A stretch of 64,000 bases of DNA, from positions 62,001-126,000 of the IMG/VR virus record IMGVR_UViG_3300042544_002197. One strand, given 5' to 3'. The DNA comes from a virus. Under the pieces are notes generated by a model. That model had not been told where the DNA came from. It searched no databases and saw only the letters and a list, made by a program, of their open reading frames with translations. The first letter of the stretch is position 1. Every line of letters starts with the position of its first letter. The translations under genes and the position numbers were made by a program. This document shows positions 5,056 to 63,569 of this stretch, one piece after another.

Positions 5056-5064
5056 AATAAATAG
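5056..5064 (-). promoter_or_regulatory. Late-promoter candidate CTATTTATT before the gp7-position gene
   Basis: On the minus strand CTATTTATT lies 9 nt before the ATG at 5046, in the same orientation as at the other late genes of this window. Promoter function is inferred. Confidence 0.6.
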
Positions 5065-5103
5065 AAAGCATGAGATTTTCTACTATTATAACGAAAAAAC
5101 ATT

Positions 5104-6933
5104 TTAGTATGTAGTCGTTCCTAAAGATTTAGTTCTCACTTTGATATCTACATTTGGGAATCTGATTTGGAAAATTTGATTGGACTTCATGAATATCGTT
5201 AAATCAGTTTGTGTTATTAATCCTGTTGTTGCATTTACGTCTTGTGAAACTTCAGAACTTGAGTAGTTTCCACCTTTTTTGTTAAAAACTCTAACGTCGA
5301 CAACATTTACAACTCCTGAAACCGCACCAATTTCTCTCATTAAATCTCCTACGAATAATGGGTCACCCATTTTACGTTTTTCAATTGCGAAAAATTCTAC
5401 TGTATTTTGAATCGTTGTTCTTAAAATATCACTTGTTTTTTCGTTCTTATCGACAATTAAATCAATTTCTAACCCTAAATCAATTACCTGACCACTTGTA
5501 ATATCAATGTAATCATTTATCATTCTATATTCAGAAAGATAACTTAATATGTTGTTTTTCAATGTGTTAGAAACAATATCAGTTAAATTACCATTTTCAT
5601 CATATGATAAAAGTTTAATCTTAACCTTATTATCTTCTTCCATTACATTTACTTTAGCAGGTGCACCATAAGTAGATGGCATTGTCTCAATCAATGATTT
5701 GTAATCATTTAAAGTTACTGCTCTATCTTGTGCGGAAAAATTATAAGATACCATATTTCTTAACTCTTCTATTGTAGGTTGGTCAGCTCCACCGATTGCG
5801 GGAGTTACGTTAGTAACTCTCAATGATTGTTGAACTTGTGAATTAAAGTTCTCATTTGGACCATTAACCTCAAATTCAACGTCATCTACACTTGTTATAA
5901 TATTAACCCCTAAATTCGAGTCTTTACCACCGCCAATACGATATTTGATGAATATTGTGGTGTTGGCCTTTGGTACCGCACCCAATGACATATTATTTAG
6001 ATATGTTGATAGATTAACCTTTAAAGAACCATTCATATAGTTATCTAAATTATCTAATGGGTTAACAGTTCCTGAACCAAATGTTATTGAAAAATAACCC
6101 TCGGGAGTATATTCGGTTACAAATTTGTTGTTTACATCGAGATATTTTCCCGCCTTAAAATTATCTGAATCTGAAGCTGCAGTTGGGTCTGGTATAAAAA
6201 CTTTATCTTGAATTAATGTTTTTACTTCATACCATTTATTTGAAATGTTTGTAAATTCAGAAGATGATGGATTTGCCCCAAATGAGGTTCCATCTTTATG
6301 AATAATAGATGTTACACCTAACACATCTTGTTCGGGTAAGTAAAGTTTAAGAAATGGTTTTTGATCTAATTCTGAAATTACTCTTCTATAAATTCTTGTA
6401 ACTCCGTTAACAACGGGTTCTCTTTTTGTTATAGTGTATGAAATCAATCTATTATTATTATCAAAATTAGGTATTTTAAGTCTATTTGGTTCTCCTCTAC
6501 TATTGAATGGGTCAGAAAAATCAATATCTTCTAACGTTTCAAATATTTGTCCTCCTCCTGAAACCTGAGCACCTGCTTTAACAACACCCAAATATCTATC
6601 ATCCTCTTTATCTCCCCTTACCGGCACGTTAATAGAAAAATCACATAAAGAAACGGATGGTCTATTACCGGGTATTTTAATACCATAAGTTTTTGCAATA
6701 TGAAATAACGATTGTCTTTGTTGAGCAAAGTCTAACATTGTTTCTTGCCAAACCCTATCAATATGAAAGTGTAAGTTATCTGCAACTGCCGCGTTTAAAT
6801 CTAACAATACAGAGAATATTGATGCGTCGTTGGTATTTTTAACCAAATCAGGATAATATTCTTTTGTTAAATTTACTAATTCTTGTCTAAGTCCCGCAAA
6901 ATCTCTGGTTGCGTATGATATCTTTTTTCCCAT
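5104..6933 (-). CDS. 6: Baseplate wedge protein gp6 (baseplate J-like)
   Basis: The 609-residue length is close to T4 gp6 (660). The C-terminal half carries the baseplate-J pattern: a GGADQPTIEELR segment, then TLNDYKSLIETMPSTYGAPA at about residues 400-430, followed by a beta-rich tail with VGDLMREIGAVSGVVNV. In T4, gp6 dimers form the wedge ring that drives the hexagon-to-star change. The start ATG is 1 base from the gp25 stop, so the two genes are cotranscribed and probably coupled. There is no separate promoter motif; transcription would come from the element before gp25. Confidence 0.9.
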   Translation of the reverse strand: MGKKISYATRDFAGLRQELVNLTKEYYPDLVKNTNDASIFSVLLDLNAAVADNLHFHIDRVWQETMLDFAQQRQSLFHIAKTYGIKIPGNRPSVSLCDFSINVPVRGDKEDDRYLGVVKAGAQVSGGGQIFETLEDIDFSDPFNSRGEPNRLKIPNFDNNNRLISYTITKREPVVNGVTRIYRRVISELDQKPFLKLYLPEQDVLGVTSIIHKDGTSFGANPSSSEFTNISNKWYEVKTLIQDKVFIPDPTAASDSDNFKAGKYLDVNNKFVTEYTPEGYFSITFGSGTVNPLDNLDNYMNGSLKVNLSTYLNNMSLGAVPKANTTIFIKYRIGGGKDSNLGVNIITSVDDVEFEVNGPNENFNSQVQQSLRVTNVTPAIGGADQPTIEELRNMVSYNFSAQDRAVTLNDYKSLIETMPSTYGAPAKVNVMEEDNKVKIKLLSYDENGNLTDIVSNTLKNNILSYLSEYRMINDYIDITSGQVIDLGLEIDLIVDKNEKTSDILRTTIQNTVEFFAIEKRKMGDPLFVGDLMREIGAVSGVVNVVDVRVFNKKGGNYSSSEVSQDVNATTGLITQTDLTIFMKSNQIFQIRFPNVDIKVRTKSLGTTTY

Positions 6934-6934
6934 T

Positions 6935-7387
6935 TTAAATGTTTAATATTATAAAATCTGAAGACGAAAACGCTCCATTATTAACTGTATATTCAATCTT
7001 TACTTTAGCCGTGTACGGTTTATTTTTACTATCTGATACTCTAAAAAGTCTTTCGTCCTCATCAGAAGAAAATGTTCTTACATTATCAGGATCATCTTCC
7101 GCAGAAATTACTTCAAGATTTGTTATGTCTAAATTAGGTATGTATCTTTTTACCGATTCCCTAATTTCTTCTTCAATTAAGTTCCAAGTTACCATGTCGT
7201 TTTGGTCGAATATAAATTGATATAATCTTGTACCAAAATCAGGTAAGAAATAACGACTACCTCTTTTTGTTAATAATAAATGTATTAAATTAGCTCTAAC
7301 TTCCCTATCGGGTGCTGAGGTCATTTTTAAATAACTACCTTCTAAACTGTCTCTAAAAGGAAAATCAATTCCATATTTTACCGCCAT
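6935..7387 (-). CDS. 25: Baseplate wedge protein gp25 (gpW/gp25 family)
   Basis: The 150-residue product has the gpW/gp25 signature at about residues 42-60 (RGSRYFLPDFGTRLYQFIFD), the family's RG.r.f.pdfG...f pattern. gp25 joins gp6 and gp53 in the wedge and primes sheath assembly in T4. It is the first gene of a late minus-strand operon (gp25, gp6, gp7-position gene, truncated gene). The motif ATATTTATT lies only 3 nt before its ATG. Confidence 0.92.
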   Translation of the reverse strand: MAVKYGIDFPFRDSLEGSYLKMTSAPDREVRANLIHLLLTKRGSRYFLPDFGTRLYQFIFDQNDMVTWNLIEEEIRESVKRYIPNLDITNLEVISAEDDPDNVRTFSSDEDERLFRVSDSKNKPYTAKVKIEYTVNNGAFSSSDFIILNI

Positions 7388-7390
7388 ACC

Positions 7391-7398
7391 AATAAATA
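7391..7398 (-). promoter_or_regulatory. Late-promoter candidate TATTTATT before gp25
   Basis: The minus strand reads TATATTTATTGGTATG, with 3 nt between motif and ATG. It follows the nrdA terminator directly, so it would start the baseplate wedge operon independently of the replication operon. Confidence 0.6.
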
Positions 7399-7422
7399 TA
7401 AACTATTATAAAATGGTAATAA

Positions 7423-7448
7423 ATAAAAAACCCAGCCGAAGCTGGGTT
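7423..7448 (-). terminator. Intrinsic terminator after nrdA
   Basis: Minus-strand RNA reads AACCCAGC-UUCG-GCUGGGUU followed by UUUUAUUU. The 8-bp stem has a stable C(UUCG)G tetraloop and a U tract. It closes the replication/nucleotide operon and separates it from the late gp25 operon. Confidence 0.9.
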
Positions 7449-7477
7449 AAATTTATAGTAAAATATACCTAATTTTA

Positions 7478-14827: not shown

Positions 14828-15673
14828 TTAGAATGGTAAATCTCCATCAACATCATCTTCTTCTTGTGGGTCAACCACAGGAGTAGAAGTTTTTGGTGAT
14901 GCAATTACCTCATCACTTGTAGATGATGAAACGTATCTTTTTTGGTCTGAATCCCAACGTGGGGCTTCACCTCTTGCAACTAACTCTAAGTAGTCTTCAC
15001 CCTTCTTAGCATATACATCTGACCAAGTTAATTCATCCTCTAACCATGTTTTTGCAACATCTGCATCCGTGTGTAAAACACCTGAATCTTCAGGGATGAT
15101 TGAATTAATTGTTGTGTATTCCTTACCGTTACCTGATTTAGTTAATGCCAAAGAAAGAATCAAATCACGTCCTGTTTCTGCATTAGTGATATCTCCTTTG
15201 TTACGGAAAATTGGGAATACTTTATCCATAATACCATCACCTTTGTGGTTATGTTTAAATCTCCAAAATTTAACTCCGTCATTTTCATGGTCACGGTCAA
15301 TAACCTTTACAATGTAAAATTTACGAGAACGGTATGTACGTGCTAATTCTTTATCAGAATCAACACCAGTCATCATTAAACCTTCATAAACCTCGTTTAA
15401 TGGTGAACGCTTACCTTCTTGTTTAGGGTCGAATAATTTAACCCATTTTCCATCCACTTGAACTTCGTGGAAATAAGCCTCTACAAATGGTGAACTACCA
15501 TCTTTTGTAGGTAAAATACGAATACGTCTTTCTTCACCTTTAGAACCCTTAGGTAATACGGTTGTGAAATACTTCTTCATTCTATCCTCTTGGGATACCT
15601 TGTTTGCATTGCCACTTGTGGCGTTGTTCTTGTTTTTCTCGTACTGTGCTAGTACTGCGTCAAATGTAGACAT
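14828..15673 (-). CDS. 32: gp32-like single-stranded DNA-binding protein, without the zinc-binding cysteines
   Basis: The 281-residue product (T4 gp32 is 301) coats ssDNA and organises replication and recombination proteins. The basic N-terminus (residues 1-50, KKYFTTVLPKGSKGEERRIR) would mediate cooperativity. The OB core includes RKFYIVKVIDRDHENDGVKF and FWRFKHNHKGDG. The acidic tail ends EEDDVDGDLPF, the usual partner-binding tip. There is no cysteine anywhere in the protein, so the Zn site of T4 gp32 (His64, Cys77, Cys87, Cys90) is missing. It opens the replication operon after a terminator. Confidence 0.92.
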   Translation of the reverse strand: MSTFDAVLAQYEKNKNNATSGNANKVSQEDRMKKYFTTVLPKGSKGEERRIRILPTKDGSSPFVEAYFHEVQVDGKWVKLFDPKQEGKRSPLNEVYEGLMMTGVDSDKELARTYRSRKFYIVKVIDRDHENDGVKFWRFKHNHKGDGIMDKVFPIFRNKGDITNAETGRDLILSLALTKSGNGKEYTTINSIIPEDSGVLHTDADVAKTWLEDELTWSDVYAKKGEDYLELVARGEAPRWDSDQKRYVSSSTSDEVIASPKTSTPVVDPQEEDDVDGDLPF

Positions 15674-17040: not shown

Positions 17041-17241
17041 TTAATCTTGTAATAATTGTCTTCCGTCGTTTGTAACGTATTTTTTATTTATTCTTTCAAC
17101 AATTCCGTCTTTTTCTCTGATTGTGTAACATTCTCCCGTTACCATATCACATTCTTCTCTTTCCATTCCGTCATTAGAAACCTTTCTAACTTTTTTTGGA
17201 TTTAAGAATTGATCTACTGCATTAATTTTATTATTTTCCAT
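17041..17241 (-). CDS. Unknown 66-aa protein, first gene of a late group
   Basis: The small charged product has two cysteines in ECDMVTGECYTIREKDG and ends KYVTNDGRQLLQD. The pattern looks conserved and not random, but I cannot name a family. It is preceded by the late-type motif GATATTTATAC 17 nt before the ATG and heads the group that runs to the terminator at 15718. Probably a minor virion or assembly protein, by context only. Confidence 0.75.
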   Translation of the reverse strand: MENNKINAVDQFLNPKKVRKVSNDGMEREECDMVTGECYTIREKDGIVERINKKYVTNDGRQLLQD

Positions 17242-17258: not shown

Positions 17259-17266
17259 TATAAATA
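17259..17266 (-). promoter_or_regulatory. Late-promoter candidate TATTTATA before the 66-aa gene
   Basis: The minus strand reads GGGATATTTATACAAT, 17 nt before the ATG at 17241. Same orientation as the other late elements. Confidence 0.6.
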
Positions 17267-23082: not shown

Positions 23083-23395
23083 AATATAACTTGTACAATT
23101 CTACAGCACTTTTGTAATCTTGTAAAGTGCTAATCAGAGGAAATGGTATTCTAATAAAAGAATTATCAGGTATTTCAAATTCCACACTACCAAGTAATGG
23201 ATTTGCTTGTAATATAATCCAACCAAATAATGGTGAGTTATAATACTCTTGTGATATTTTATCTAATCTATCTTTACCCCTTTTGTATTGCATATACTTA
23301 TCACTTCCCTTTATAGGAATTTCAATGCCAGGGACAATTCTAAATTTACCGTCCGCTAAAAAATATTGGTACCTGTCAAAATAGTCCCTACTCAT
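23069..23395 (-). CDS. 53: Baseplate wedge protein gp53
   Basis: The 108-residue product matches the compact core of gp53-type wedge proteins. It has an N-terminal YFDRYQYFLADGKFRIVPGI, then a LysM-like segment (KRGKDRLDKISQEYYNSPLF, GWIILQANPLLGS) and a C-terminal IPDNSFIRIPFPL. T4 gp53 (196 aa) is longer and also carries a LysM-type fold. It links wedges into the dome around the hub. The ATG overlaps the stop of the 1583-aa gene by 4 nt (ATGA), so coupling is likely. Confidence 0.85.
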   Translation of the reverse strand: MSRDYFDRYQYFLADGKFRIVPGIEIPIKGSDKYMQYKRGKDRLDKISQEYYNSPLFGWIILQANPLLGSVEFEIPDNSFIRIPFPLISTLQDYKSAVELYKLYYGEQ

Positions 23396-26300
23396 GGTTT
23401 ATAATAATTTAGTTTATCACCTATTTTATTCTTTGTATTAAATATTTTCTTCAAATCTGTTTTCGCTTCCGTGGTTAACTCCCCCGTTACTACCTCAAAT
23501 TCAATTTCTTTATCATTTTTCTTAACAGGAAATTTATCTAATTTAAACTTCTTCTCTGTTGGTTTTGTAATAAAATTATCAAATTTCTTTTCTAATTTTG
23601 TTTTTATCTTATCTGTAAAGTTTACAGTATCAACGTTATATAAATCTAAAATACTTTTCTTTTCATCTTTAAGTAATACAGATAACATATCATTCATATC
23701 TTGTGGTGATAATGCTGAATAATCTAATGTAGTTGTAAAATCTTCTGTAAAATGTTGGAAGTTATTTTTAATATATGTTATAACGCTTGAATAGTTTGAA
23801 TAAAAACCTTCATTTGTAAATCCCACACTAAAAGTAACTCCACTATAATTTTCCTTTTCTATTTTACCATCTCTTTCGTATTTTGTAATAAAATTAACTT
23901 TGTCTAATGCCTCAATCACCTCTTTTCTAACATCTTCTACTTTTTTCATTTCCTTAAAATCACTAATCTTTTGTGTCTTATCTGAAATTAATTTTTTAAC
24001 ATATGGTTTTAATAAGTCATTTGAATTAGATACTAATGATGATGGTAATACGTCTGAAAATCCTAAAACACTAGTTAAATCCGCAGTATTGGAAACATAA
24101 TTAACTAATGAGTCAGTTAATCTTATTTTTAATTTATTTAAATCAAGAGAAGGTTTATATTCTCCCAATAGTTTTATGTCTTCTGCAGATGTTGTATTGG
24201 TATTAACAGTATATCCAGTTATTGTTCTAAAATTTTGTGATAAAAACATTTGACCTATTTTTGGACCAAAGTTCTTTATAACTTCATTATATGCGGTTTG
24301 GTATGTATTAAAGTAATTTCCAACACTACTATAAACCATATCAATGGTGTTAGTATATTTCATCTTATTTCCATTTGGGGTTCCGATATATGTTCCCTCA
24401 ACTGTTTTGTTTGAGTTTGCTGAATCGTTTTTACCTTCTAACGAAAATCCGTTTCTTTTTTGTAATTCTTCTAAAAAATCTTTTGTGAATTTTTCAGCGT
24501 CTTTTCCGTCTATTTTAGTTGTTGTAGAAATTGCTCTTTCATCATACATTTCTGTATTTGCAAAAAAGTTTGACGATAATGCATTTTGTAATCTCTCAAC
24601 AGGTTTTTCTAAACCTTGTCCTCCAATAAATGAAACTTGTAAACTTACATTAGCAATCATTGGTTGTACACCAATTCCTTCTGGATTTAAATCCCAAGTA
24701 CTATCTTCATATGTAATTCCAACATCTCTAATAATAACTTTAGAATGGTAAAAATCACCAATTCTTAAAACACAAATAGGTGGTGGACCAAATGAAGTAT
24801 TTCTTGCTCCCACATCTAATGGGTCCGAAACTCCTTTAATTGGGATTGTATCTCCAGGTCTTACACATTGCAATAAGAATGTTAATCTACTATTTAATCC
24901 TTCGGGTGTTGTTGAATGGAAACCCGGATGGAAATATCTTAATTTTTCTTTTAATGAGGTAAATGCAACTGGTGAATCTTCTTCTAACTTTTTAAAGTAA
25001 TGACACTCCGATAATGTTTTCATAATGATTCTCTTCATCACATCTATAGTAGGTTTCCTATTCGGTACAGTCGTTGTACCATCTGGTTCAATTGTTGTTA
25101 TTGGAACCGGTATATTTGGTACTGTAATTTCCTGTGGTTGTTCAGGTTTCTTCTTATAATCAAATTTAACTCTAGCTTGTCTACAATAAAATGCAATAGG
25201 TGATGTATCTTTAAGACCTTGTCTTGTTAATATTTTTTGATTACAATTTAAATTATCTTTACCACCTGTGTTTTTTAAAGTGGTATCTTCACCATTTGTA
25301 TTAAATTTAAAAATAAACTTACCATCTACGTCATAACCAAAATCCTTAAATGTAAATTCTTTTACAAATTCTCCTGGTTTTTGATTGGTTCCTGTTTTTT
25401 CATATGGTTTTAAAACGGTATCGTTAAACCATTTTAGTTCAGGTGTTTTACCATTTGATATTCCTTTGAATATATCTTGAAAAATACTATGTCCTCTTCT
25501 AACACCTAAATAAAAATTATATGTACTATCTGCAACTTCTGAAGTTGATGATGAAATTGAAAAAGTAACTTCGCTAACCGTCTTACCTGTAATATCAGAT
25601 TTTAATGCAGCTAATTTTGTATTGTATTCTGTATACCCACTTGTTAATTCATCAAACCCTGTTGCAATTTTTTGTGCTTCTTTACTAATTGTGGCTCCAC
25701 TTGTTGCAGAATCAATAGATTCTTTACCAAAAATAACCAATCTATCTTTTTTATGATTTTCGGTTGTTCCTACCACTAATTCACCTAAATCGATAACAGT
25801 ATTTCCAGTGTATGTTACTTTTTGTTTAACATACTGTTCATATAATTGTGTGTACGTTAAATTTGTTGATCCTTTTGTTGAACCATCTTTTTTAGGATAA
25901 TCGTTTGCAAAATAAAATCTCTTATCAAATTGTACCGTTGTGTCTTTACCTCCATTTTGTCCTTTATCGGGTTTAGGAAATGTAACTGGTGTTGTGGTAT
26001 ATTTGTATTTTTTAATTTCCTGTGGTGGTTTAGAAGAATTTAAATATAGTTTTATTAGATTAATATCGTCACTATCTAAAGTTGTATATGTTTGTATTAA
26101 ACTATAAAAATCAATTTCTTCACATCCAGCAAAAAATGCATTAATGTAATTATCCGCCTCTTCATCCGACATTCCTTTGAAGTGTTCTCTAACTAATAAA
26201 TTTAAAATACTTGGGTGATCAACAACAACTTTAAAAGATATTGTACCACTTCTTGATGTATTTTGATAAGTATAAATTGGTTCCGGTCTTCCTAAAAAAG

Positions 26301-28153: not shown

Positions 28154-28162
28154 AATAAATAG
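28154..28162 (-). promoter_or_regulatory. Late-promoter candidate CTATTTATT before the 1583-aa gene
   Basis: The minus strand reads AATCTATTTATTATAAAA, 10 nt before the ATG at 28143. It lies in the 21-nt gap after the tape measure gene. Confidence 0.6.
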
Positions 28163-30097: not shown

Positions 30098-30105
30098 TAT
30101 AAATA
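30098..30105 (-). promoter_or_regulatory. Late-promoter candidate TATTTATA before the tape measure gene
   Basis: The minus strand reads CATCTATTTATATGATATG, with 4 nt between motif and ATG. Confidence 0.6.
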
Positions 30106-31007: not shown

Positions 31008-31017
31008 TATAAGTAGA
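31008..31017 (-). promoter_or_regulatory. Variant late-promoter candidate CTACTTATAG before the gp26-like gene
   Basis: It differs from CTATTTATA at one base and lies 14 nt before the ATG at 30993 in sense orientation. Weaker evidence than the exact matches. The terminator after gp19 lies just upstream, so a promoter here is needed unless read-through supplies this operon. Confidence 0.4.
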
Positions 31018-31036
31018 TTAAAGTAAAGTTTTTGCA

Positions 31037-31633: not shown

Positions 31634-31641
31634 TATAAATA
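31634..31641 (-). promoter_or_regulatory. Late-promoter candidate TATTTATA before gp19
   Basis: The minus strand reads ACACATATTTATAAGAAG, 37 nt before the ATG. The leader is A-rich with no Shine-Dalgarno. The same 37-nt spacing occurs at gp18. Confidence 0.7.
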
Positions 31642-34853: not shown

Positions 34854-34861
34854 TATAAATA
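34854..34861 (-). promoter_or_regulatory. Late-promoter candidate TATTTATA before gp18
   Basis: The minus strand reads AAAGATATTTATAGAATAAC, 37 nt before the ATG. An inverted repeat, ATCTTTG (34861-34867) with CAAAGAT (34875-34881), lies just upstream. Confidence 0.7.
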
Positions 34862-36874: not shown

Positions 36875-36883
36875 AATAAATAG
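36875..36883 (-). promoter_or_regulatory. Late-promoter candidate CTATTTATT for the neck operon
   Basis: The minus strand reads AAACTATTTATTAGGATATG, 5 nt before the ATG at 36869. Confidence 0.6.
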
Positions 36884-36902: not shown

Positions 36903-36910
36903 TATTTATA
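36903..36910 (+). promoter_or_regulatory. Late-type motif TATTTATA before the helicase gene
   Basis: The plus strand reads AATTATTTATATTTTAATATG, 7 nt before the ATG at 36918. The divergent neck gene has its own copy on the other strand 20 bp away, each in sense orientation. Confidence 0.55.
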
Positions 36911-38874: not shown

Positions 38875-38882
38875 TATTTATT
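38875..38882 (+). promoter_or_regulatory. Late-promoter candidate TATTTATT before the neck-type gene
   Basis: The plus strand reads AAACTATTTATTGAAATA, 15 nt before the ATG at 38898. Confidence 0.6.
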
Positions 38883-43004: not shown

Positions 43005-43373
43005 TTAAAAAATGTTGATGTATAATTTTTCTTTAACGGGTAATATCAATTTTGTTGTTGGGTTTCCGTTTGTGTCTAAAAATTGTATAGTTATTTTACC
43101 CTCAAATTTACCCATTTCTGAAGTTTGGGTTTCAGTAAATCTATGTGTAATATAATATTCCTCGGTTGTTTGGTTATATAATTTTGTTCTCGTTGTCACT
43201 AAACAATCACTATTCAATATTACGGGTTCCCCTGTTTTAACGTCAGACATTTCAAATGTGATGTCTGCACTTTCGAGCATATCATTAAATGATGATTTGT
43301 CGTTTTTACCGTCATCAATCATCCTCATTTTTAATATTGGGTCAGATGCCCCTTGTCTTATAAAGAATTCCAT
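43005..43373 (-). CDS. Small beta-rich tail/baseplate-type protein
   Basis: The 122-residue product has a pattern of alternating strands and polar turns (DITFEMSDVKTGEPVILNSD, then GKFEGKITIQFLDTNGNPTT). This resembles the N-terminal domain of upper-baseplate or fibre-attachment proteins (BppU-like), but that is a weak visual match. It follows the Pro/Thr-rich adhesin gene and carries its own late motif 4 nt before the ATG, so it belongs to the late fibre region. No enzymatic motif. Confidence 0.65.
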   Translation of the reverse strand: MEFFIRQGASDPILKMRMIDDGKNDKSSFNDMLESADITFEMSDVKTGEPVILNSDCLVTTRTKLYNQTTEEYYITHRFTETQTSEMGKFEGKITIQFLDTNGNPTTKLILPVKEKLYINIF

Positions 43374-43377: not shown

Positions 43378-43385
43378 TATAAATA
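43378..43385 (-). promoter_or_regulatory. Late-promoter candidate TATTTATA before the 122-aa gene
   Basis: The minus strand reads AATATTTATAACATATG, 4 nt before the ATG. Confidence 0.6.
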
Positions 43386-44568: not shown

Positions 44569-44901
44569 TTAATTTATTATAATATACAATGTACCACTAA
44601 CTGGTGTTATCGATGCATATGATGATGATGTAATAGTTTCGAGTTTATTAACGGTATTTGATGACATAATATTACTTCCGTTTACATTTGCACTGCCAGT
44701 AACATTTAATGAACCTGTTAACGATAAACTACCACTAATATATTGACTACCGGTAAAATAATGTGAACCACTATCAACTAACGTTTGTCTAAGTGTGGAT
44801 AATGTCGATTTATATGTTGTACCACCAAATGCAACCGCGGTAACTCCGGTTAAACTTGGAGCAATTGAACTAGATAGTTCTGTTATTTTTTTTCCTGCCA
44901 T
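44569..44901 (-). CDS. Small fibre-type protein with TGSL-type repeats
   Basis: The 110-residue product starts [20 protein letters not shown], a start typical of phage fibre or tail-attachment subunits. The middle has repeated beta-helix-like turns: [20 protein letters not shown] then [12 protein letters not shown] role as a trimeric fibre shaft or connector is likely. The motif CTATTTATT lies 3 nt before the ATG, and the adhesin gene follows 1 base after the stop. Confidence 0.75.
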
Positions 44902-44904: not shown

Positions 44905-44913
44905 AATAAATAG
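44905..44913 (-). promoter_or_regulatory. Late-promoter candidate CTATTTATT before the 110-aa fibre gene
   Basis: The minus strand reads AAACTATTTATTTAAATG, 3 nt before the ATG. The 10-base core AAACTATTTATT is identical to those at 36869 and 38898. Confidence 0.6.
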
Positions 44914-46074: not shown

Positions 46075-46082
46075 TATAAATA
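46075..46082 (-). promoter_or_regulatory. Late-promoter candidate TATTTATA before the 384-aa gene
   Basis: The minus strand reads AAAGATATTTATAGAAACATG. The first 10 bases match the gp18 element (AAAGATATTTATAGAA). Confidence 0.6.
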
Positions 46083-46099
46083 TCTTTCATAAGATTTGA

Positions 46100-46107
46100 T
46101 ATTTATA
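46100..46107 (+). promoter_or_regulatory. Late-promoter candidate TATTTATA before the 247-aa gene
   Basis: The plus strand reads TTTGATATTTATAATAAAA, 15 nt before the ATG at 46123. It lies back to back with the element at 46075-46082. Confidence 0.6.
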
Positions 46108-46122: not shown

Positions 46123-46866
46123 ATGAATAATTTTATAAAACAGGTAATTGAGGAGAAATTTGCATCAAAAGCACAACAAAGGTTCTTCTACGCTAAGGCG
46201 AATGAAAAGGGTAAACCTAAGAAAGAAAAGAAGAAATGGAGTAAATGGGCTAAGGAATTCTCTGATAAAACAAATTATGACGAAATACCTGATAAGGTAG
46301 AGACAGAGGTCGATGAAATTGTAGACAAATACGGAAATATTGCTACAGGCAAAAAACCAACTGATTTTAATACGAAAGGTGTCACACAAAAGAAAACAAG
46401 TGATGATGTTGCAAAGGCGGCTCATGGTTCTATGGGTAGAATGGCTAATGTTGGTGGATCAACAATGAGATATTGGGCTGAATCGGATATGAGTAAAGCG
46501 TTAGGATTTGACGACACGATGGCAAAAGATGCTGATTATGAGGATGCTGAAGACCATTTTAAAGGTGAATTAGGTTTAGATGAACCTGAAGCTGAAGATA
46601 GGTTAGCTCAAATGGGTTATGATAAAAAATTACCCGCGGATAAGGTAAGATTGGTTGAGAATCCTAAAAAATTCATGGAGGAATATATCGAAAGTGTTTT
46701 ATCTAAAAGGGCAAAAGACAATGAAATCGTTTCAAAAGACGAACAAACAGAAGAAAAAGAAATTAACCCAATTGTTTTAAAACAATTAAAATCATTGAAA
46801 AATACAATGAATAGTCATAAATTATCAATTAATGATATTATGAAACATTTAAAAGATAATGAATAA
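46123..46866 (+). CDS. Charged late protein, possible head-packaged protein
   Basis: The 247-residue product is rich in Lys, Glu and Asp. It starts MNNFIKQVIEEKFASKAQQR; the helix with VIEE-K and the following KAQQRFFYAKANEKGKPKKE block resemble small DNA-associated or structural proteins with KAQxRFFxAK motifs. The middle has GSMGRMANVGGSTMRYWAES, and the C-terminus is helical with FMEEYIESVLSKRAKDNE. No enzyme signature. It is first of a five-gene late operon (46123-49081) with a sense late motif. The 3' end overlaps the next gene by 8 nt. Confidence 0.75.
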   Translation: MNNFIKQVIEEKFASKAQQRFFYAKANEKGKPKKEKKKWSKWAKEFSDKTNYDEIPDKVETEVDEIVDKYGNIATGKKPTDFNTKGVTQKKTSDDVAKAAHGSMGRMANVGGSTMRYWAESDMSKALGFDDTMAKDADYEDAEDHFKGELGLDEPEAEDRLAQMGYDKKLPADKVRLVENPKKFMEEYIESVLSKRAKDNEIVSKDEQTEEKEINPIVLKQLKSLKNTMNSHKLSINDIMKHLKDNE

Positions 46867-49132: not shown

Positions 49133-50356
49133 ATGTCAAAATTGAGAATTTTAGCTATTCCGTCCGATGCCCATGGTGTGGGTAAATTTAGGATAATGGA
49201 TCCATACAAATATATTGGTGATAATCACATGGATGAATTTCATGTTGACATTTCATATAATGTTGAAAATAATGATGAAGCGTTTTTAAATTATGACATT
49301 GTTGTGTTTCATAGTTTTATACACCAAACAACTCACGAAGATAACGTTAATAGAGTTTTATGGTTAAAGAAACAAGGAATTAAAGTTGTAATGGACATTG
49401 ATGATTTATGGTTTGTTGACCAAAGACATCCAATGTACCAACAAATAAAAATTTCTAAAATGGGTGAGAAAAAAATCGAGTTACTTAAAATTGCCGATTA
49501 TGTTTCCACAACAACTTCCATCTTTGCTAAAACAATTAAAGAAAGATTAGGTGTTAAAAACATTGTTATTTTTCCAAATGCCGTGAACAATGAAGAACCT
49601 CAGTTTAAACTAAATCCAATTAAATCAGATAAAGTTAGATTCGGTTGGTTAGGTGGGTCATCACATTTACACGATATTGAGTTAATGGCAAGTGGTATTT
49701 CCGCGACACATAATTTATTTAAAGATAAAGTACAATTTGTTTTATGTGGATTTGATTTAAGAGGTAATGTAATGGAAATTGACGATAAAGGTAATCGTAG
49801 AAATAGACCAATTAAACCACATGAAACTGTTTGGTTCAAATATGAAAAGTTCTTTACAGATGATTATAAAGTTTTAAGTGAAGAATATAAATCATATCTT
49901 AATACGTTTATGGAAATTCCATATGATGATGAAAATGAACCATATAGAAGAAGATGGACAAAAGAAATAAACACATATGCAACAAACTATAACACTTTTG
50001 ACGTATCTTTGGCTCCGTTAGTTGAATCTGTGTTTAATGCAAATAAATCACAATTAAAAGTCATTGAAGCTGGTTTTTATAAAAAGGCTTTGATTGCAAG
50101 TGATACAGACCCATTCACTTTGGATTTATTGTCTGCGGTAAACGAAGGTAATTTTAATGATAAAGGAAACGCATTATTGGTAGGTACAAAAAAGAATCAC
50201 AAAGATTGGGCGAGACATATGAAACGATTAGTTGAAAATCCAAATATGATTGAAGACTTAGGAAACCGTTTATATGAAACAGTTAAAGACACATACTCAC
50301 TAAAAAAAGTGTGTCAAGATAGAGTAGAATTTTTCAAATCAATTATAAATAAATAA
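49133..50356 (+). CDS. Glycosyltransferase, GT-B fold (GT4-like)
   Basis: The 407-residue product has an N-terminal Rossmann-like half (LRILAIPSDAHGVGKFRIMD, VVMDIDDLWFVDQ near residues 85-97, IFPNAVNNEEPQF) and a C-terminal nucleotide-sugar half (VRFGWLGGSSHLHDIELMAS, LKVIEAGFYKKALIASDTDP near 310). This order is typical of retaining GT4-type enzymes. It probably modifies a sugar on phage DNA, virion or host surface; the acceptor cannot be read from the sequence. First gene after a host-type promoter, hence likely early/middle. Two more glycosyltransferases lie 3 kb downstream on the same strand. Confidence 0.85.
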   Translation: MSKLRILAIPSDAHGVGKFRIMDPYKYIGDNHMDEFHVDISYNVENNDEAFLNYDIVVFHSFIHQTTHEDNVNRVLWLKKQGIKVVMDIDDLWFVDQRHPMYQQIKISKMGEKKIELLKIADYVSTTTSIFAKTIKERLGVKNIVIFPNAVNNEEPQFKLNPIKSDKVRFGWLGGSSHLHDIELMASGISATHNLFKDKVQFVLCGFDLRGNVMEIDDKGNRRNRPIKPHETVWFKYEKFFTDDYKVLSEEYKSYLNTFMEIPYDDENEPYRRRWTKEINTYATNYNTFDVSLAPLVESVFNANKSQLKVIEAGFYKKALIASDTDPFTLDLLSAVNEGNFNDKGNALLVGTKKNHKDWARHMKRLVENPNMIEDLGNRLYETVKDTYSLKKVCQDRVEFFKSIINK

Positions 50357-51442: not shown

Positions 51443-51450
51443 TATTTATA
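51443..51450 (+). promoter_or_regulatory. Late-type motif TATTTATA before phoH
   Basis: The plus strand reads GTGAGATATTTATATAAAAT, 34 nt before the TTG start at 51485, a spacing like that at gp18 and gp19. Confidence 0.55.
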
Positions 51451-54179: not shown

Positions 54180-54955
54180 AAAATATAACAGTAATTTTAC
54201 CAATTCATACCTTATCTGATGATTATAAGGAAATGTTAAATAACGCACTATCATCAGTCGAAGATTTTCATAATGATGTAAAAGTTTCTATTGTTTGTCC
54301 AACATCATTAAAAAAAGATTTAAAAGATTTATCAAATAAATTAGAAATAACGATTGTTACAAATAAAGGTGAGACCGATTTTTGTTCACAAGTAAATTTA
54401 GGTATTGACAATTGTGATACTGAATGGTTTACAATTTTAGAAATTGATGACGAATTTAAACCAGTTTGGTTAAAATCAATGAACGAATATAGTAAAGTCT
54501 TTACAGATGTTTCTGTATTTTTACCAATAGTTAAAGATATTAATGTAGAGGGTAAATTTATTAATTATACTAATGAATCTGCTTGGGCATATGGTTTTAC
54601 CGATATGCAAGGATTTATCGATAACGAAGTTTTATTAGATTTCCAAAATTATCAAACAAGCGGTGGATTATTTAAAACACAAGTCATTAAAGACAATGGT
54701 AAATTTAAAGAAAATATTAAATTAACATTTGTTTATGAATTCTTATTAAGATTAACACACAATGGTGTTAGAATAATGACAGTTCCTAAGGCGGGATATC
54801 AACACGTAAATCTAAGAGAAGATTCATTATTTTGGAAATATAAAAATGAGGAAAAAATGATTCTATCTGAAAACGAAGTTAAATTTTGGTTGGACACAGC
54901 AAAGAAAGAATTTTTCTTTAAAAATAAACGAGATGTAAATTATCAACCAGCTTAA
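54176..54955 (+). CDS. Glycosyltransferase, GT-A type (GT2-like)
   Basis: The 259-residue product has an N-terminal ITVILPIHTLSDDYKEMLNN and a nucleotide-sugar region ITIVTNKGETDFCSQVNLGI, with the metal-binding LEIDDEFKPVW near residue 90. This order fits the GT2 fold (ILP.h.......l..al.Si, then D.D). The C-terminal part contains AGYQHVNLREDSLFWKYKNE. Likely an inverting sugar transferase acting with the preceding GT-B enzyme. Its TAA shares the A of the gp55 ATG (TAATG), placing sugar transfer and late sigma in one transcript. Confidence 0.82.
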   Translation: MKNITVILPIHTLSDDYKEMLNNALSSVEDFHNDVKVSIVCPTSLKKDLKDLSNKLEITIVTNKGETDFCSQVNLGIDNCDTEWFTILEIDDEFKPVWLKSMNEYSKVFTDVSVFLPIVKDINVEGKFINYTNESAWAYGFTDMQGFIDNEVLLDFQNYQTSGGLFKTQVIKDNGKFKENIKLTFVYEFLLRLTHNGVRIMTVPKAGYQHVNLREDSLFWKYKNEEKMILSENEVKFWLDTAKKEFFFKNKRDVNYQPA

Positions 54956-55653
54956 TGCCGAGAAAACGTACCCAAAAAATTTATTTTGGGGAGGATCAAG
55001 AGAAGGCGGTAGTCAGTTACCTTGAAAGTAGTGACGATGCAGAAAAAAACAAGATATTCAACGAATATTTACGAGAACCCCTAATTATAATGGTCGAATC
55101 AATTATTCGACGTTATAAACTTTACAGAAAAGATTTAGAATTTGAGGAAATTCATAACGATACAATGTCGTTTTTAATTACTAAAATTCACAAATTTGAT
55201 CACACAAAAAATCATAAAGCATACTCCTATTTTGGGACAATCTGTAAAAACTACCTAATGGGGGCAATACAGAAAGACACAAAAGAACAGAATAGACAAG
55301 TTTCTTATGATGATATATCATCTGACATTGAGGATAGAACGGATTTATCCTATGTTATTGATGAGTATATCGTAGACTATCGGGATGTTATTATTAAACT
55401 AACAATATCCTTAGAGGAGTTTATGGAAAAAGAAGACCTAACAGATAACGAACAGAAATTAGGTTATGCGTTACTTGAAATTTTTAATAATTTTGATAGA
55501 ATATTCCAAGTTGGTGACGGTAATAAATTTAACAAAAACCTAATTTTATTATCATTACGAGAAATGACATCCCTTTCCACCAAAGAAATTAGAATATCTC
55601 TAAAAAAATTCAAAAAGATGTACGACGGGATTTTGGGTGGATTTTTAGAATAA
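54955..55653 (+). CDS. 55: Late transcription sigma factor gp55
   Basis: The 232-residue product (T4 gp55 is 185) has a sigma region 2-like core: FEEIHNDTMSFLITKIHKFD followed by HKAYSYFGTICKNYLMGAIQ near residues 75-110, and a basic N-terminus. gp55 replaces host sigma and directs RNA polymerase to late promoters. It is translationally coupled to the glycosyltransferase upstream. It lacks a late motif of its own, consistent with expression before the late phase. It is the natural partner for the (A/C)TATTTAT(A/T) element seen before the late genes. Confidence 0.85.
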   Translation: MPRKRTQKIYFGEDQEKAVVSYLESSDDAEKNKIFNEYLREPLIIMVESIIRRYKLYRKDLEFEEIHNDTMSFLITKIHKFDHTKNHKAYSYFGTICKNYLMGAIQKDTKEQNRQVSYDDISSDIEDRTDLSYVIDEYIVDYRDVIIKLTISLEEFMEKEDLTDNEQKLGYALLEIFNNFDRIFQVGDGNKFNKNLILLSLREMTSLSTKEIRISLKKFKKMYDGILGGFLE

Positions 55654-55656: not shown

Positions 55657-55664
55657 TATTTATA
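55657..55664 (+). promoter_or_regulatory. Late-promoter candidate TATTTATA after gp55
   Basis: The plus strand reads AATCTATTTATAGGTATG, 3 nt before the ATG at 55668. It would start the late baseplate operon directly after the late sigma gene. Confidence 0.6.
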
Positions 55665-55667: not shown

Positions 55668-56048
55668 ATGAGAACACAAAGAAATTTAATATCATTAGAT
55701 GTTGATTCTGCATTGGCTTTAATGCAGGAGATATATAATGATGTAGTTGAGAACCGAAACACCGCCTCAATTATTATGAAAAAAATGCTTTCTTTTATGA
55801 AAGATGCTGAAGATATGAGTGTTATTGGTCCCGTAATCAAAGAACAACAAAAGGTTTTAAATGACCTTACCGAAAAGAAAATATCCCTTGTAAAATTACA
55901 AAGTGCACTCCTTAAACAGACCCAAGGAACGGGTAGTGGTAAAGGTGGACCTATGGGTAAATTAACATTATCTGAGGAGGATAGAGATTTATTGGATAAG
56001 TTGGTTAATGACGGTGACAATAAAAACGAAACTAACTATAGATTATAA
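55668..56048 (+). CDS. Unknown 126-aa helical late protein
   Basis: The product is mostly helical (ALALMQEIYNDVVENRNTAS, VIGPVIKEQQKVLNDLTEKK), with a Gly/Lys loop near residues 90-98 (TQGTGSGKGGPMGK) and an acidic tail. It starts a late operon of five genes that includes the gp5-like protein, so it is probably a tail or baseplate assembly component. No named family. The stop overlaps the next start (TAATGG). Confidence 0.7.
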   Translation: MRTQRNLISLDVDSALALMQEIYNDVVENRNTASIIMKKMLSFMKDAEDMSVIGPVIKEQQKVLNDLTEKKISLVKLQSALLKQTQGTGSGKGGPMGKLTLSEEDRDLLDKLVNDGDNKNETNYRL

Positions 56049-59670: not shown

Positions 59671-59678
59671 TATTTATA
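59671..59678 (+). promoter_or_regulatory. Late-promoter candidate TATTTATA before the 456-aa gene
   Basis: The plus strand reads TTTGATATTTATAAATAA, 11 nt before the ATG at 59690. It lies directly after the gp5-like stop. Confidence 0.6.
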
Positions 59679-59689: not shown

Positions 59690-61060
59690 ATGTCATATTT
59701 TCGTTCATATTTTGAGAAAAACAACACAATCATAAAGGATTCTGCTGTTAATACCTCTAAAAATCCAACAACTGAGATATTTTATGGTTCTGGATTTTCT
59801 AAATTTATATTTAAATTAGATTTAGACAGTTTACAGAATAAAGTAAACTCGGGTGAATTGGTTGTAACCAACACCACTAACCACACATTACATCTAACAA
59901 ACACGATTTTTGGTGACGAGGGACTAAAAGGTAAAAACAGAAGTACCTCAAGAGATAGAGCAACTTCTTTTGATTTAATAATCTTTAAAATAACAGAATT
60001 TTGGGACGAGGGTGTTGGTTTTGATTACCAAGACTCTGGTTATGATTTTACAACTGGTAACCACACATTTGATGAGAGACCATCTAACTGGTTTAATAGA
60101 ACCACTTTAAATGAATGGACAAGTCAAGGTGTATATGCAACAGACCCAATTATAGTAACTTCAATGCATTTTGACAATGGTAATGAGGATATTAATGTCG
60201 ATATAACAGGATATGTTAATGGTATATTATCGGGAGATACAAATCACGGATTGGGAATTGCGTTTTCGGTGTTATATCAAGATTTAAGTCCCGAGGTTGA
60301 TAACTCTGTAGCGTTTTTTACGAAATACACCCAAACGTTCTTTGAACCTTATATGGAATCAACATTTGATGATAGAATAGAAGATGATAGACAAAATTTT
60401 ATCGGTGGGGTTGACCAAAATTTATATTTGTATGTTACAAAAGGTTCTAATTTTTATGATTTAGATGAACTTCCAATGGTGGATATATTGGATAGTACAA
60501 ATACCGTTATTAGTGGATTGTCCAATTTTACAGCAACAAAAGTCAAAAAGGGAGTTTACAAAGTTACATTTGGAATTGATGGTGTTTTGTGTGACGGTAA
60601 AAAATTCTTTTTTGATAAGTGGAAAAATTTAACCTTAGATGGTGTTGACATTTCAGATGTCACTCAAAAATTCGTACCTAAACCATACACCTCATTATAT
60701 ACTATTGGTGCAAATCAAACAGAATTACAAAGATATGCAATACAATATTTTGGTATAAAACAATCCGATAAGATAAAAAGAGGAGAAAAAAGAAAAGTTG
60801 TAATAAGTTTTAAATCAATTGACAATCCTAAAACGGTGTTATTTGACGAGGTTTATTATAGAATGTTTATAAAGGAGGGGGTTACCGATGTTATTATTCA
60901 TGATTGGACTTTGACAGATACCACAAATGAAAATTCTTTTACATTAGACACGTCTATTTATATTCCGAGGGAATATTTTATAGAAATAAAAGGAAAAACT
61001 CATACAGAAGAAATCTTCTATAAAGAACATATAAAATTTGAAATTTTATCTGAAAAATAA
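59690..61060 (+). CDS. 456-aa structural protein with fibre/adhesin-type N-terminal domain
   Basis: The N-terminal 200 residues show a jelly-roll-type pattern similar to DNRLRE-like domains: SGFSKFIFKLDLDSLQNKVN, LVVTNTTNHTLHLTN, TSFDLIIFKITEFWDEGVGF and INVDITGYVNGILSGDTNHG with WFN..TL..W. The rest is made of beta modules (residues about 230-450). This suits a tail appendage, baseplate fibre or tail collar. No enzymatic motif. Its own late motif lies 11 nt upstream; the following 152-aa gene has another. Confidence 0.7.
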   Translation: MSYFRSYFEKNNTIIKDSAVNTSKNPTTEIFYGSGFSKFIFKLDLDSLQNKVNSGELVVTNTTNHTLHLTNTIFGDEGLKGKNRSTSRDRATSFDLIIFKITEFWDEGVGFDYQDSGYDFTTGNHTFDERPSNWFNRTTLNEWTSQGVYATDPIIVTSMHFDNGNEDINVDITGYVNGILSGDTNHGLGIAFSVLYQDLSPEVDNSVAFFTKYTQTFFEPYMESTFDDRIEDDRQNFIGGVDQNLYLYVTKGSNFYDLDELPMVDILDSTNTVISGLSNFTATKVKKGVYKVTFGIDGVLCDGKKFFFDKWKNLTLDGVDISDVTQKFVPKPYTSLYTIGANQTELQRYAIQYFGIKQSDKIKRGEKRKVVISFKSIDNPKTVLFDEVYYRMFIKEGVTDVIIHDWTLTDTTNENSFTLDTSIYIPREYFIEIKGKTHTEEIFYKEHIKFEILSEK

Positions 61061-61063: not shown

Positions 61064-61071
61064 TATTTATT
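61064..61071 (+). promoter_or_regulatory. Late-promoter candidate TATTTATT before the 152-aa gene
   Basis: The plus strand reads AAAAATATTTATTATTATG, 3 nt before the ATG at 61075. Confidence 0.6.
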
Positions 61072-61074: not shown

Positions 61075-61533
61075 ATGAACATAAGTGAATTAATTAAAAA
61101 ACATTTAAGTAAGGTGGTTAAAGAACAACAAGAATCTCACATATCTGAGGACGGAACGTACATGGTTTTAAGTAACCTTGTTAAAATAAAGAATGATATT
61201 GAAACAATACTGTCATTTAAACACCAAACCGATTTCCCTAAATTAGTCACAGGAGAACATGCTTGGGCTGGTGACCATATAACAACATCTGCGGATGATA
61301 TTGAGGAGGTTGCTAACTTCATTGATGGTTATTTTGAACAAAAAAATCTGTCAGAATCAGAGAAAAAAAGAAACAAACTTTGTTCAAGAGGAATGTCCGC
61401 AGCCAAATCTAAATTTAAAGTTTATCCATCGGCATATGCAAATGGGTACGCAGTACAAGTCTGTAAGGGTAAAATTAAAGGATTAGATGGTAAAAAACAA
61501 TGCTCCGGTTCATACTGTAGTGGTAAAAAGTAA
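61075..61533 (+). CDS. 152-aa late protein, candidate prohead-processed or packaged protein
   Basis: The N-terminal helix MNISELIKKHLSKVVKE-QQ ends in a VxE-Q step like a prohead-protease site. The middle is ordered (EHAWAGDHITTSADDIEEVA). The C-terminus carries a motif that I associate with recurrent small proteins of marine T4-like phages: CSRGMSAAKSKFKVYPSAYA then NGYAVQVCKGKIKG, ending GSYCSGKK. Four Cys could bind metal. Function of this domain is unknown to me. It lies 3 nt before the next gene in a late operon. Confidence 0.75.
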   Translation: MNISELIKKHLSKVVKEQQESHISEDGTYMVLSNLVKIKNDIETILSFKHQTDFPKLVTGEHAWAGDHITTSADDIEEVANFIDGYFEQKNLSESEKKRNKLCSRGMSAAKSKFKVYPSAYANGYAVQVCKGKIKGLDGKKQCSGSYCSGKK

Positions 61534-62418: not shown

Positions 62419-62859
62419 TTAATAATAAATTATATTAACCCCACACTCATTTAAAAGTTGTTTGGCCTTACTTTGGGATTCATCCCACTTTTCTTTATTT
62501 TTAGTAGTGCAGACTTCCTTACAATATACCGTCTTTATACCAGAATTAACAATTCCTCTAGCACAATCCATACAAGGTAATCCCGATGTTAAATAGATTG
62601 TTGAGTTTTTAAGGGACACACCCTCTAACGCAGCATTATAAATCGCATTACGTTCCGCATGTTCCATCCAGAAGTATTTCTCGGGTCTTTCCTGACGTTC
62701 AGGTTTAGAATCGTCTAAACCCCTTGGAAAGGAATTATAACCCGTAGAAAGGACGTTTCTACCCTCCCCAACGACAACAGCACCTATCTGTGTAGATTGG
62801 TCCTTAGATTTAAGTTTTACAACCTCTGCAATTTCTAAAAAATATTCCGTCCAATTCAT
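62419..62859 (-). CDS. cd: dCMP deaminase
   Basis: The zinc deaminase (146 residues from the chosen start) converts dCMP to dUMP, supplying dTMP synthesis with the dUTPase at 50838. Zinc motifs are HAERNAI near residue 65 and PCMDCAR near 95. The frame is open from an ATG at 62883, but I choose the ATG at 62859 (MNWTEYFLEIAEVV) because it shares a base with the stop of the preceding gene (TAATG) and gives the usual family N-terminus. The motifs fit T4 Cd (193 aa), though this version is shorter. It is convergent with the 293-aa gene. Confidence 0.95.
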   Translation of the reverse strand: MNWTEYFLEIAEVVKLKSKDQSTQIGAVVVGEGRNVLSTGYNSFPRGLDDSKPERQERPEKYFWMEHAERNAIYNAALEGVSLKNSTIYLTSGLPCMDCARGIVNSGIKTVYCKEVCTTKNKEKWDESQSKAKQLLNECGVNIIYY

Positions 62860-63155
62860 TATATTAATTTTTGTGGTGACCAAAACATAATACGATTATC
62901 CTCGTACCTATTTAAATGTTTCCCTTCTTTTTTCTCGATTAATTTACTCATTTGTAGTAAATGGTCTCTATTTTTAATATCAATACCCACAGCATATCCA
63001 TTACCATCCTTCATATAAGTGGTTTCTCTGATATATTTATCCTCATCGTCCAATTTAAGGTATTTTATAATCTCATCCTTCTTGCTTTTACAAGAAATAC
63101 CCCTTTCATCAATGAGTTTAATAAGAACATCTAATCTAAGATTCTCGTATTCCAT
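62859..63155 (-). CDS. 98-aa protein with SAP-like N-terminus
   Basis: The N-terminal part (LRLDVLIKLIDERGISCKSK then KDEIIKYLKL) resembles a SAP-type DNA-binding helix-extended loop-helix. The C-terminal half (YAVGIDIKNRDHLLQMSKLI and HLNRYEDNRIMFW) is alpha/beta. It precedes dCMP deaminase with TAATG coupling, and TATTTATA lies 8 nt before its ATG. A small DNA-binding accessory protein is likely; the exact role is not known. Confidence 0.75.
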   Translation of the reverse strand: MEYENLRLDVLIKLIDERGISCKSKKDEIIKYLKLDDEDKYIRETTYMKDGNGYAVGIDIKNRDHLLQMSKLIEKKEGKHLNRYEDNRIMFWSPQKLI

Positions 63156-63163
63156 AATGCAAA

Positions 63164-63171
63164 TATAAATA
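63164..63171 (-). promoter_or_regulatory. Late-type motif TATTTATA before the 98-aa gene
   Basis: The minus strand reads ATTATTTATATTTGCATTATG, 8 nt before the ATG at 63155. The terminator after the 106-aa gene lies just upstream, so a promoter is expected here. Confidence 0.55.
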
Positions 63172-63192
63172 ATATTCTGGAATATGCCAAAA

Positions 63193-63219
63193 ATAAAAAA
63201 CCCCCATAATTGGGGGTTT
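63193..63219 (-). terminator. Intrinsic terminator after the 106-aa gene
   Basis: Minus RNA reads AACCCCCA-AUUA-UGGGGGUU followed by UUUUAUUUUU. The stem is GC-rich with a long U tract. Confidence 0.92.
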
Positions 63220-63222
63220 AAA

Positions 63223-63543
63223 TTATCTTACTACTGTAAATTTACCTAATTGTGAATTACCACTTAGTACACCGGGAGCGTCTGAATATAATTCAAGACC
63301 CGATTGTCCATTTTTTAACGATGCCCCACCGTATGTTCCTGGACCTGTTATAGTACCAACCATAAAATTTGGTTCTGCCGCTGTAATTTTTATTGTATAC
63401 ATTTGGCCATCAACATCTCTCTTAGTATTAACTACTTGACCCACACTAAAATTTTTAGGTTGGTGTTGTTCATTTAATAATGTTTTGTTTAATCTTTGGT
63501 TAGCCTCAATTATGTTTTGTAATTTTGCAAGTTTTTTGTTCAT
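63223..63543 (-). CDS. 106-aa late protein with N-terminal helix and LxE-Q step
   Basis: The N-terminal helix (KLAKLQNIIEANQRLNKTLL) ends NE-QHQPK, resembling a prohead-protease site near residue 25. The mature part is beta-rich and Gly-rich (FSVGQVVNTKRDVDGQMYTI, GTITGPGTYGGASLKNGQSG). It lies directly downstream of the major capsid gene and between two terminators, with its own late motif, so it forms a single-gene late unit. A head-associated or minor capsid protein is plausible. Confidence 0.75.
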   Translation of the reverse strand: MNKKLAKLQNIIEANQRLNKTLLNEQHQPKNFSVGQVVNTKRDVDGQMYTIKITAAEPNFMVGTITGPGTYGGASLKNGQSGLELYSDAPGVLSGNSQLGKFTVVR

Positions 63544-63561
63544 TTTTTAATTGTTTATAGA

Positions 63562-63569
63562 TATAAATA
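63562..63569 (-). promoter_or_regulatory. Late-promoter candidate TATTTATA before the 106-aa gene
   Basis: The minus strand reads GAAATATTTATATCTATAAA, 18 nt before the ATG at 63543. Confidence 0.6.

Follow-up and report, generated by a model that had tools for sequence, protein, structure and literature searches.

The stretch of DNA analyzed here (the window) is 64,000 nucleotides (nt) long and corresponds to bases 62001-126000 of the 150,872-base virus record IMGVR_UViG_3300042544_002197, a genome with a G+C content of 32%. Our subjects are the eight-base motif TATTTAT(A/T), or TATTTATW where W is A or T, read on the coding strand throughout, and the gene at 54955..55653 (plus strand), which encodes a gp55-like late sigma factor of 232 residues, the proposed reader of the motif. 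Genes were called with our own simple caller, which gave 56 genes in the window and 127 in the whole record. A megablast comparison of 24 kilobases (kb) of the window with named phages gave no match. The first-pass annotation of the window had listed 20 starts preceded at 3-37 nt by a sense TATTTAT(A/T), and all 20 copies are present. The additional A or C that it placed before the motif is found at 18 of these starts; at 63155 and 36918 the preceding base is T.

Motif copies in the window

To follow each copy in relatives, four IMG/VR scans (with gp55, capsid, sheath and gp41 as queries) were made to give 320 loci, and the distinct upstream 60-mers of orthologues were compared. For the orthologue counts, regions at least 85% identical were merged, those equally similar to this phage were dropped and only genes with at least three distinct regions (61 genes) were used; the orthologous regions are related and the counts are therefore not independent events. 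The fractions in parentheses below are the orthologous regions that carry the motif.

On the minus strand TATTTATT is found at 5056..5063 before gene 682-5046 (6/6), at 7391..7398, 3 nt before the ATG of the baseplate wedge gene 6935-7387 (8/8; this gene has a sense terminator upstream and a second motif copy at 7418-7425, also on the minus strand), at 28154..28161 before 23392-28143 (10/10), at 36875..36882, 5 nt before the ATG of 36357-36869 (13/13), and at 44905..44912, 3 nt before the ATG of 44569-44901 (a sequence match in the window). The TATTTATA form on the same strand lies at 17259..17266 before 17041-17241 (8/8), at 30098..30105, 4 nt before the ATG of 28165-30093 (fewer than three distinct orthologous regions), at 31634..31641 before the tail tube gene 31108-31596 (14/14), at 34854..34861 before the tail sheath gene 31937-34816 (6/6), at 43378..43385, 4 nt before the ATG of 43005-43373 (8/12), at 46075..46082, 5 nt before the ATG at 46069 (10/12), at 63164..63171 before 62859-63155 (a sequence match in the window) and at 63562..63569 before 63223-63543 (a sequence match, located downstream of a sense terminator). 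On the plus strand TATTTATT precedes the head-tail adaptor-like gene 38898-40013 (38875..38882; 16/16) and 61075-61533 (61064..61071, 3 nt before the ATG; 13/19), and TATTTATA precedes the helicase gene 36918-38669 (36903..36910; exact in 9/16, the other seven having one change at base 3 or 4), gene 46123-46866, which is divergent from 46069 (46100..46107; 15/15), the PhoH-like gene (51443..51450; a sequence match in the window), gene 55668-56048, which directly follows the gp55 gene (55657..55664, 3 nt before the ATG; 32/33), and gene 59690-61060 (59671..59678; 34/35).

Two of these starts deserve comment. The start at 46069 lies inside a longer open reading frame that has an ATG at 46090, and in all 10 motif-bearing orthologous regions the motif lies 4-6 nt before the matching ATG. 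The PhoH-like gene start at 51485 is a TTG and is less secure. Before the baseplate hub gene 30244-30993 the annotation had noted a copy with one mismatch; this copy (TACTTATA, 31008..31015, minus strand) is present and is better placed in a class of variants that differ at base 3. Orthologues of this gene carry TANTTAT(A/T) in 17 of 18 regions (shuffle mean 4.2), the exact TATTTAT(A/T) being found in only one. A second word, CTTTAC(A/T)TT (31020-31028, minus strand), lies directly upstream of the variant and is present in 16 of the 18 regions.

A sense copy precedes 20 of the 56 window genes, versus 2.5 in shuffles (standard deviation 1.5, maximum 7, 1000 shuffles), a value at the upper end of the one to three chance matches that the annotation had estimated. 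Antisense copies precede seven genes versus 3.6 in shuffles (standard deviation 1.8, maximum 11), and four of the seven come from two divergent pairs in which the sense copy of one gene is the antisense copy of its partner. The motif total in the window is not raised (34 versus 36.9 expected). Given that the excess is found only upstream of starts and in the sense orientation, the signal is one of place and strand. The comparison of sense and antisense counts that the annotation proposed for the full genome gave the same picture: in the 40 nt upstream of starts 30 of 127 genes have a sense copy versus 4.0 in shuffles (standard deviation 1.9, maximum 11, 500 shuffles) and six have an antisense copy versus 6.6, whereas with 60 nt the values are 30 versus 4.2 and 12 versus 7.2 (maximum 13, 100 shuffles). 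The claims that orientation follows the gene and that the motif is more than AT-richness are thus borne out. The WATAAATA type of T4 was found upstream of 6 genes versus 6.6 (40 nt) and 12 versus 7.2 (60 nt), so that in this phage TATTTATW stands in place of the TATAAATA consensus with the TAAATA core of T4-type late promoters.

Conservation among related phages

For the 18 genes with the motif here, 304 of the 327 distinct orthologous regions contain a sense copy (antisense 44), versus 46 of 883 (antisense 64) for the 43 genes that lack it here. Ten of these 46 copies come from the gene set at start 46090 instead of 46069, 15 from the gene for the ribosomal protein bS21 and seven from gene 110497. 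The annotation had reported that the motif is missing before nrdA, nrdB, gp41, uvsX, gp32, gp43, the glycosyltransferase gene and gp55, and relatives agree: summed over these genes, 2 of 125 orthologous regions have a copy. Structural genes having the motif in relatives include those of the terminase (32/34), portal (26/28) and head protease (27/27) and the gene before the capsid gene (27/27). The major capsid gene itself has a sense copy in none of 52 orthologous regions (antisense in 17), and its leader is A-rich in the 32 loci inspected; the gene is probably transcribed from the promoter of its upstream neighbor. Hence the statement that the motif marks late genes holds as a bias toward late and virion genes, but not for every late gene.

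Around gp55 genes (loci of at least 4 kb, in four identity groups of 98, 57, 19 and 60 loci) sense copies numbered 189 versus 42, 152 versus 29, 21 versus 1.6 and 66 versus 6.7. Two named phages also have the motif. In Flavobacterium phage immuto, which is cultured on Flavobacterium sp. LMO8, it precedes 31 of 205 genes versus 4.8, including the annotated terminase, gp20, tail sheath, tail completion and tape measure genes, and in Microcystis phage Mel-JY01 (132 of 190 kb) it precedes 14 of 133 genes versus 2.7. As controls, the procedure recovered the TATAAATA type (WATAAATA) of T4 itself (9 versus 1.2) and the CTAAATA type in P-HM2 (5 versus 0.5), Aeh1 (8 versus 0.6) and a Rhizobium phage (6 versus 0.1). 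AT-rich bacterial segments, mostly from Ignavibacteria/Bacteroidota that are not known hosts of these phages (27 of 30 segments, those above 42% G+C being left out), showed no clear motif excess (sense 8 of 256 versus 5.0, antisense 8 versus 5.4). TATTTAT(A/T) is a real, conserved and sense-oriented late motif class, which is better regarded as a variant of the T4 element than as its inversion. We found no report of TATTTATA as a phage promoter in literature listings, which included few subscription journals.

Register of the motif and the gp55-like protein

The annotation described the motif as the reverse complement of the T4 late promoter. This is literally true and yet misleading, since TATTTATA and TATAAATA differ at only two of eight bases, both central, and the tolerated changes fit the T4 register. 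These changes, like the spacing, terminator, bS21 and N-terminal codon data below, were taken from the merged set with regions similar to this phage retained. At the expected places in 21 gene groups there were 354 exact copies, 42 with one change and 26 places with none, and the 42 changes were distributed over bases 1-8 as 2, 2, 20, 5, 1, 1, 6 and 5. In 1278 upstream regions the consensus was found 373 times versus 61 in shuffles, and the one-change words more than twofold above shuffles were C at base 3 (44 versus 15.0), G at base 3 (28 versus 11.4) and G at base 4 (21 versus 9.6). As changes are tolerated mainly at base 3, the T4 register with TT in place of AA at -10/-9 fits better than a flipped element. 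We therefore rejected a flipped T4 promoter as the description, although this evidence is suggestive rather than conclusive, given that bases 1, 2, 5 and 6 all vary little; the pattern likewise suggests a T4 element in which TT has taken the place of AA. The annotation was right to warn that scanning for the T4 motif without regard to strand would place these promoters on the wrong one. No conserved -35 element was seen in the 4-30 nt upstream of the motif (0.02-0.24 bits per position).

That the phage encodes a gp55-like sigma factor, as annotated, is upheld by a match of the 54955-55653 protein to the PHROG late sigma factor family phrog_234 (E value 2.7e-4), and its best match among solved structures in a profile search was T4 gp55 (7d7c, E value 7.9e-4). 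In T4, bases -12, -9 and -8 are reported to be flipped into gp55 pockets, with a tyrosine stacked on A-12, Asn13 at -9 and Thr99 at -8 (PMC7892883). We located the corresponding residues by sequence alignment, the structure model being too weak for this use. The 12 aligned proteins were six of the T4/cyanophage type, for which the promoter type was measured only in T4 and P-HM2, and six of this lineage (three of them close relatives and one from LR756508). The contact-region comparison suggested by the annotation showed that Tyr97 is retained in all 12 proteins and that the other two positions differ: Asn13 is retained in 6/6 of the T4/cyanophage type but replaced by Gly, Thr or Asp in 6/6 of this lineage, and Thr99 is Thr in 5/6 of the former and Gly, Gln or Ser in 6/6 of the latter. 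The association is correlative and concerns two lineages; it suggests that the pocket changes accompany the promoter change, and the link to specificity is a prediction.

The lineage shares a helical C-terminal extension (about 55400-55653 in the window) without the short C-terminal tail of T4 gp55, and our impression is that this extension may have a helix-turn-helix look. A gp55 gene was found in 14 of 15 large relatives. In one relative (L104 record, G005) the gene at 67212-67898 is broken into three matches with stop codons, which reflects either misassembly or gene decay. A search with the clamp family PF02916 gave no match in the record of this phage, and was uninformative since the control genomes likewise gave none.

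Spacing is the second property of interest. The 3-37 nt range given by the annotation was correct, but a consequence went unmentioned: 14 of 31 motif copies of this phage end 3-6 nt before the ATG. Among 384 occurrences in distinct regions the distance was 0-2 nt in 4, 3-6 nt in 170, 7-9 nt in 9, 10-20 nt in 149 and farther in 52. If the motif is a promoter, the mRNAs of the 3-6 nt class would be leaderless, which suggests that in this phage the 5' end of many late messages coincides with the AUG or directly adjoins it. Wrong start codons were considered as the source of this class and rejected because the N-terminal codons show the variation of coding sequence from that ATG onward: in all eight genes analyzed the third positions are the most variable ones of codons 2-15. 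In this class no other ATG (GTG and TTG aside) within the first 14 codons is common to most orthologues; such ATGs were found at codon 16 (7/9) and codon 19 (30/33). In Flavobacterium psychrophilum 5.5% of mRNAs are reported to be leaderless, most having leaders (PMC9723704).

Weighing the explanations

Our reading, which we hold to be very likely, is that the diverged gp55 of the phage recognizes TATTTAT(A/T) as the -10-like core element of a late promoter of the T4 type. The promoter role, gp55 rather than another sigma factor as reader and the position of the transcription start are all inferred from sequence. That the motif is instead a by-product of AT-rich intergenic sequence would agree with the low G+C content and with a window total no higher than chance, but it was rejected by the strand and orthologue tests (sense 30 versus 4.0 with antisense 6 versus 6.6, conservation in 304 of 327 regions and only 8 versus 5.0 in AT-rich bacterial segments) and has a negligible probability. 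A role in the mRNA leader, as a translation-initiation signal or other RNA-level element such as a ribosome enhancer or an RNA-binding or cleavage site, is more reasonable: many copies lie just before the ATG (82, 45 and 32 of the 384 at 3, 4 and 5 nt), and in Bacteroidota, the mRNAs of which lack Shine-Dalgarno sequences, another signal could be expected. However, the spacing ranges from 3 to 39 nt (with one stray copy at 46) and drifts among orthologues of a single gene, and the major capsid gene has the motif in none of 52 regions. Of the 35 regions upstream of the large terminase gene 33 bear the motif, and all 33 have a terminator, the T run of which stops 1-2 nt short of the motif. The same arrangement was seen in 0 of 27 regions of the portal gene and 1 of 9 of the baseplate wedge gene, so that this DNA-level argument rests mainly on one gene. 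Sense terminators lie within 100 nt of 5 of the 34 motif genes of this phage, all five upstream of the motif, and of 7 of the 93 other genes. Nine of the 14 copies in Mel-JY01 are 31-43 nt from the start, and the motif there is mostly well before a Shine-Dalgarno-like sequence (GGAG or AGAGG between motif and ATG in five of eight examples inspected). The terminase terminator, the variable and drifting distance to the ATG and the position in Mel-JY01 favor a promoter, and we consider an RNA element very improbable.

The remaining alternative, a promoter read by another sigma factor, either of the host or a phage sigma-A-like protein, is given some weight by the sigma-70-type protein that the phage encodes (phrog_351, E value 8.8e-46), also found in 12 of 15 large relatives, and by the TTT that the motif has in common with the Bacteroidota -7 box TAnnTTTG. 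Against it, immuto has both the motif and gp55, and a tblastn search of its whole genome with the sigma-A-like protein gave nothing at E<1. The 30 nt preceding the motif contain no conserved block. Flavobacterial sigma-A is reported to read a different word, TAnnTTTG (PMC6847099, PMC9723704), TATATTT words precede some non-late genes here, and TTTG is no part of the TATTTATW motif with its tolerated C or G at base 3. We think a reader other than gp55 unlikely. The sigma-A-like gene lies outside the window (record 25844-26458 and upstream, L002:5844-6458, minus strand), in a frame open to an ATG that gives about 271 residues. The 30 cellular matches found for the protein are mostly from Ignavibacteria/Bacteroidota, at about 40% identity. 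TATATTTTACTATAA-like words upstream of the gp32 gene (14828-15673) and the glycosyltransferase gene (49133-50356) are conserved in the relatives inspected and resemble both the Bacteroidota TAnnTTTG box and the immuto motif TATATTTAGGTATAATAA; they are probably early or middle promoters. The bS21 gene (record 129937-130128, plus strand, outside the window) lies between structural genes, and its upstream regions in relatives have TATATTT in 31 of 36 cases and TA(T/C)TTAT in 26 of 36, which suggests tandem early-type and late promoters.

Several observations weigh against a gp55-read late promoter. LR756508, which has a gp55 of the same lineage, has the motif before none of 98 genes versus 0.7 expected in the 88 of 484 kb examined, and counts against gp55 as the reader too. 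Three of the four gp55 groups have an antisense excess as well (108 versus 64, 82 versus 52 and 9 versus 4.5; 14 versus 18 in the fourth), perhaps owing to shared divergent regions, and T4 itself has three TATTTATW copies versus 0.8. A sigma-A-like factor is present in this phage and most of its large relatives, the position of His95 varies in both gp55 types (Tyr or Phe in this lineage) and the gp55 structure model is of low confidence (predicted local distance difference test score 65.6) with weak fold matches. Copies at 3-6 nt from the ATG are only 2 of 31 in immuto and absent from Mel-JY01, so the leaderless class is not universal. Moreover, T4 spacing, with +1 six nt after the motif, would cut the ATG of the 3-nt class; either the start is about 2 nt closer or the mRNAs of this class work otherwise. 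In F. johnsoniae a spacing of 4-5 nt is taken for probable promoters (PMC6847099), by which the 3-nt class is about 1 nt tight. Phages that share the bS21 gene arrangement and have predicted Bacteroidetes hosts were RNA-mapped in published work, which bears on the matter from both sides, although these phages are likened to ours by gene arrangement and not by sequence. Their structural region is reported not to be one operon, and their capsid gene may be co-transcribed with the gene upstream of it (PMC9723584). The motif map would predict the same two features, in agreement with that report. The same paper also suggests that the protease is paired with the downstream gene, which here has its own motif, if that gene is 127421-128596.

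Proposed mechanism and known promoters

In the mechanism that we propose, the motif would be the late element of a large T4-related phage clade whose hosts are probably mostly Bacteroidota. The phage gp55, bound to host RNA polymerase, would read it as non-template-strand DNA with no -35 element; relative to TATAAATA (-13 to -6), A-12 and A-8 would be kept and TT would replace AA at -10/-9. The predicted transcription start is about 4-6 nt downstream of the motif, such that copies 3-6 nt before the ATG would give leaderless or nearly leaderless mRNAs and those about 10-20 or 33-39 nt before it a short leader. A broader possibility, which we put forward tentatively and regard as doubtful, is a coupled late takeover of transcription and translation initiation: a gp55 lineage that re-specified the T4 late promoter through the -9/-8 pocket change, nearly half of the late promoters close to the ATG and leaderless in Bacteroidota hosts, and a phage bS21. 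The motif would provide a computable marker of late genes among the uncultured aquatic phages of this large group. The promoter change of two bases, accompanied by substitutions at a few mapped pocket positions, would be a natural experiment on sigma-family DNA specificity, and the close spacing of motif and ATG makes a testable claim of leaderless translation in Bacteroidota, where ribosomes make no use of Shine-Dalgarno sequences.

The Bacteroidota sigma-A promoter (-33 TTTG, -7 TAnnTTTG) is of the likely host type and is resembled by the TATATTT before some non-late genes and bS21, but the late motif lacks the TAnnTTTG spacing and final G, and no -33 element was seen. The late promoters of the CTAAATA type, published for Aeh1 (PMC1524935), are like the present motif altered T4-type elements found in the sense orientation before genes of the structural region. 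Those phages keep TAAATA and change the first bases, with a spacing of 18-45 nt, whereas here the change would be at -10/-9. The T4 late promoter (TATAAATA, with gp55, gp33 and gp45) shares with the present system a single -10-like octamer at late and virion genes, the lack of a -35 element, an encoded gp55 homologue and, if the register is the same, A-12 and A-8. The two differ in the TT in place of AA at -10/-9, in the residues at Asn13, His95 and Thr99, in the C-terminal part of gp55, which is longer here and dissimilar to that of T4, and in spacing, the WATAAATA copies of T4 (43 kb) lying 14-28 nt from the ATG and those of this phage often 3-6 nt from it.

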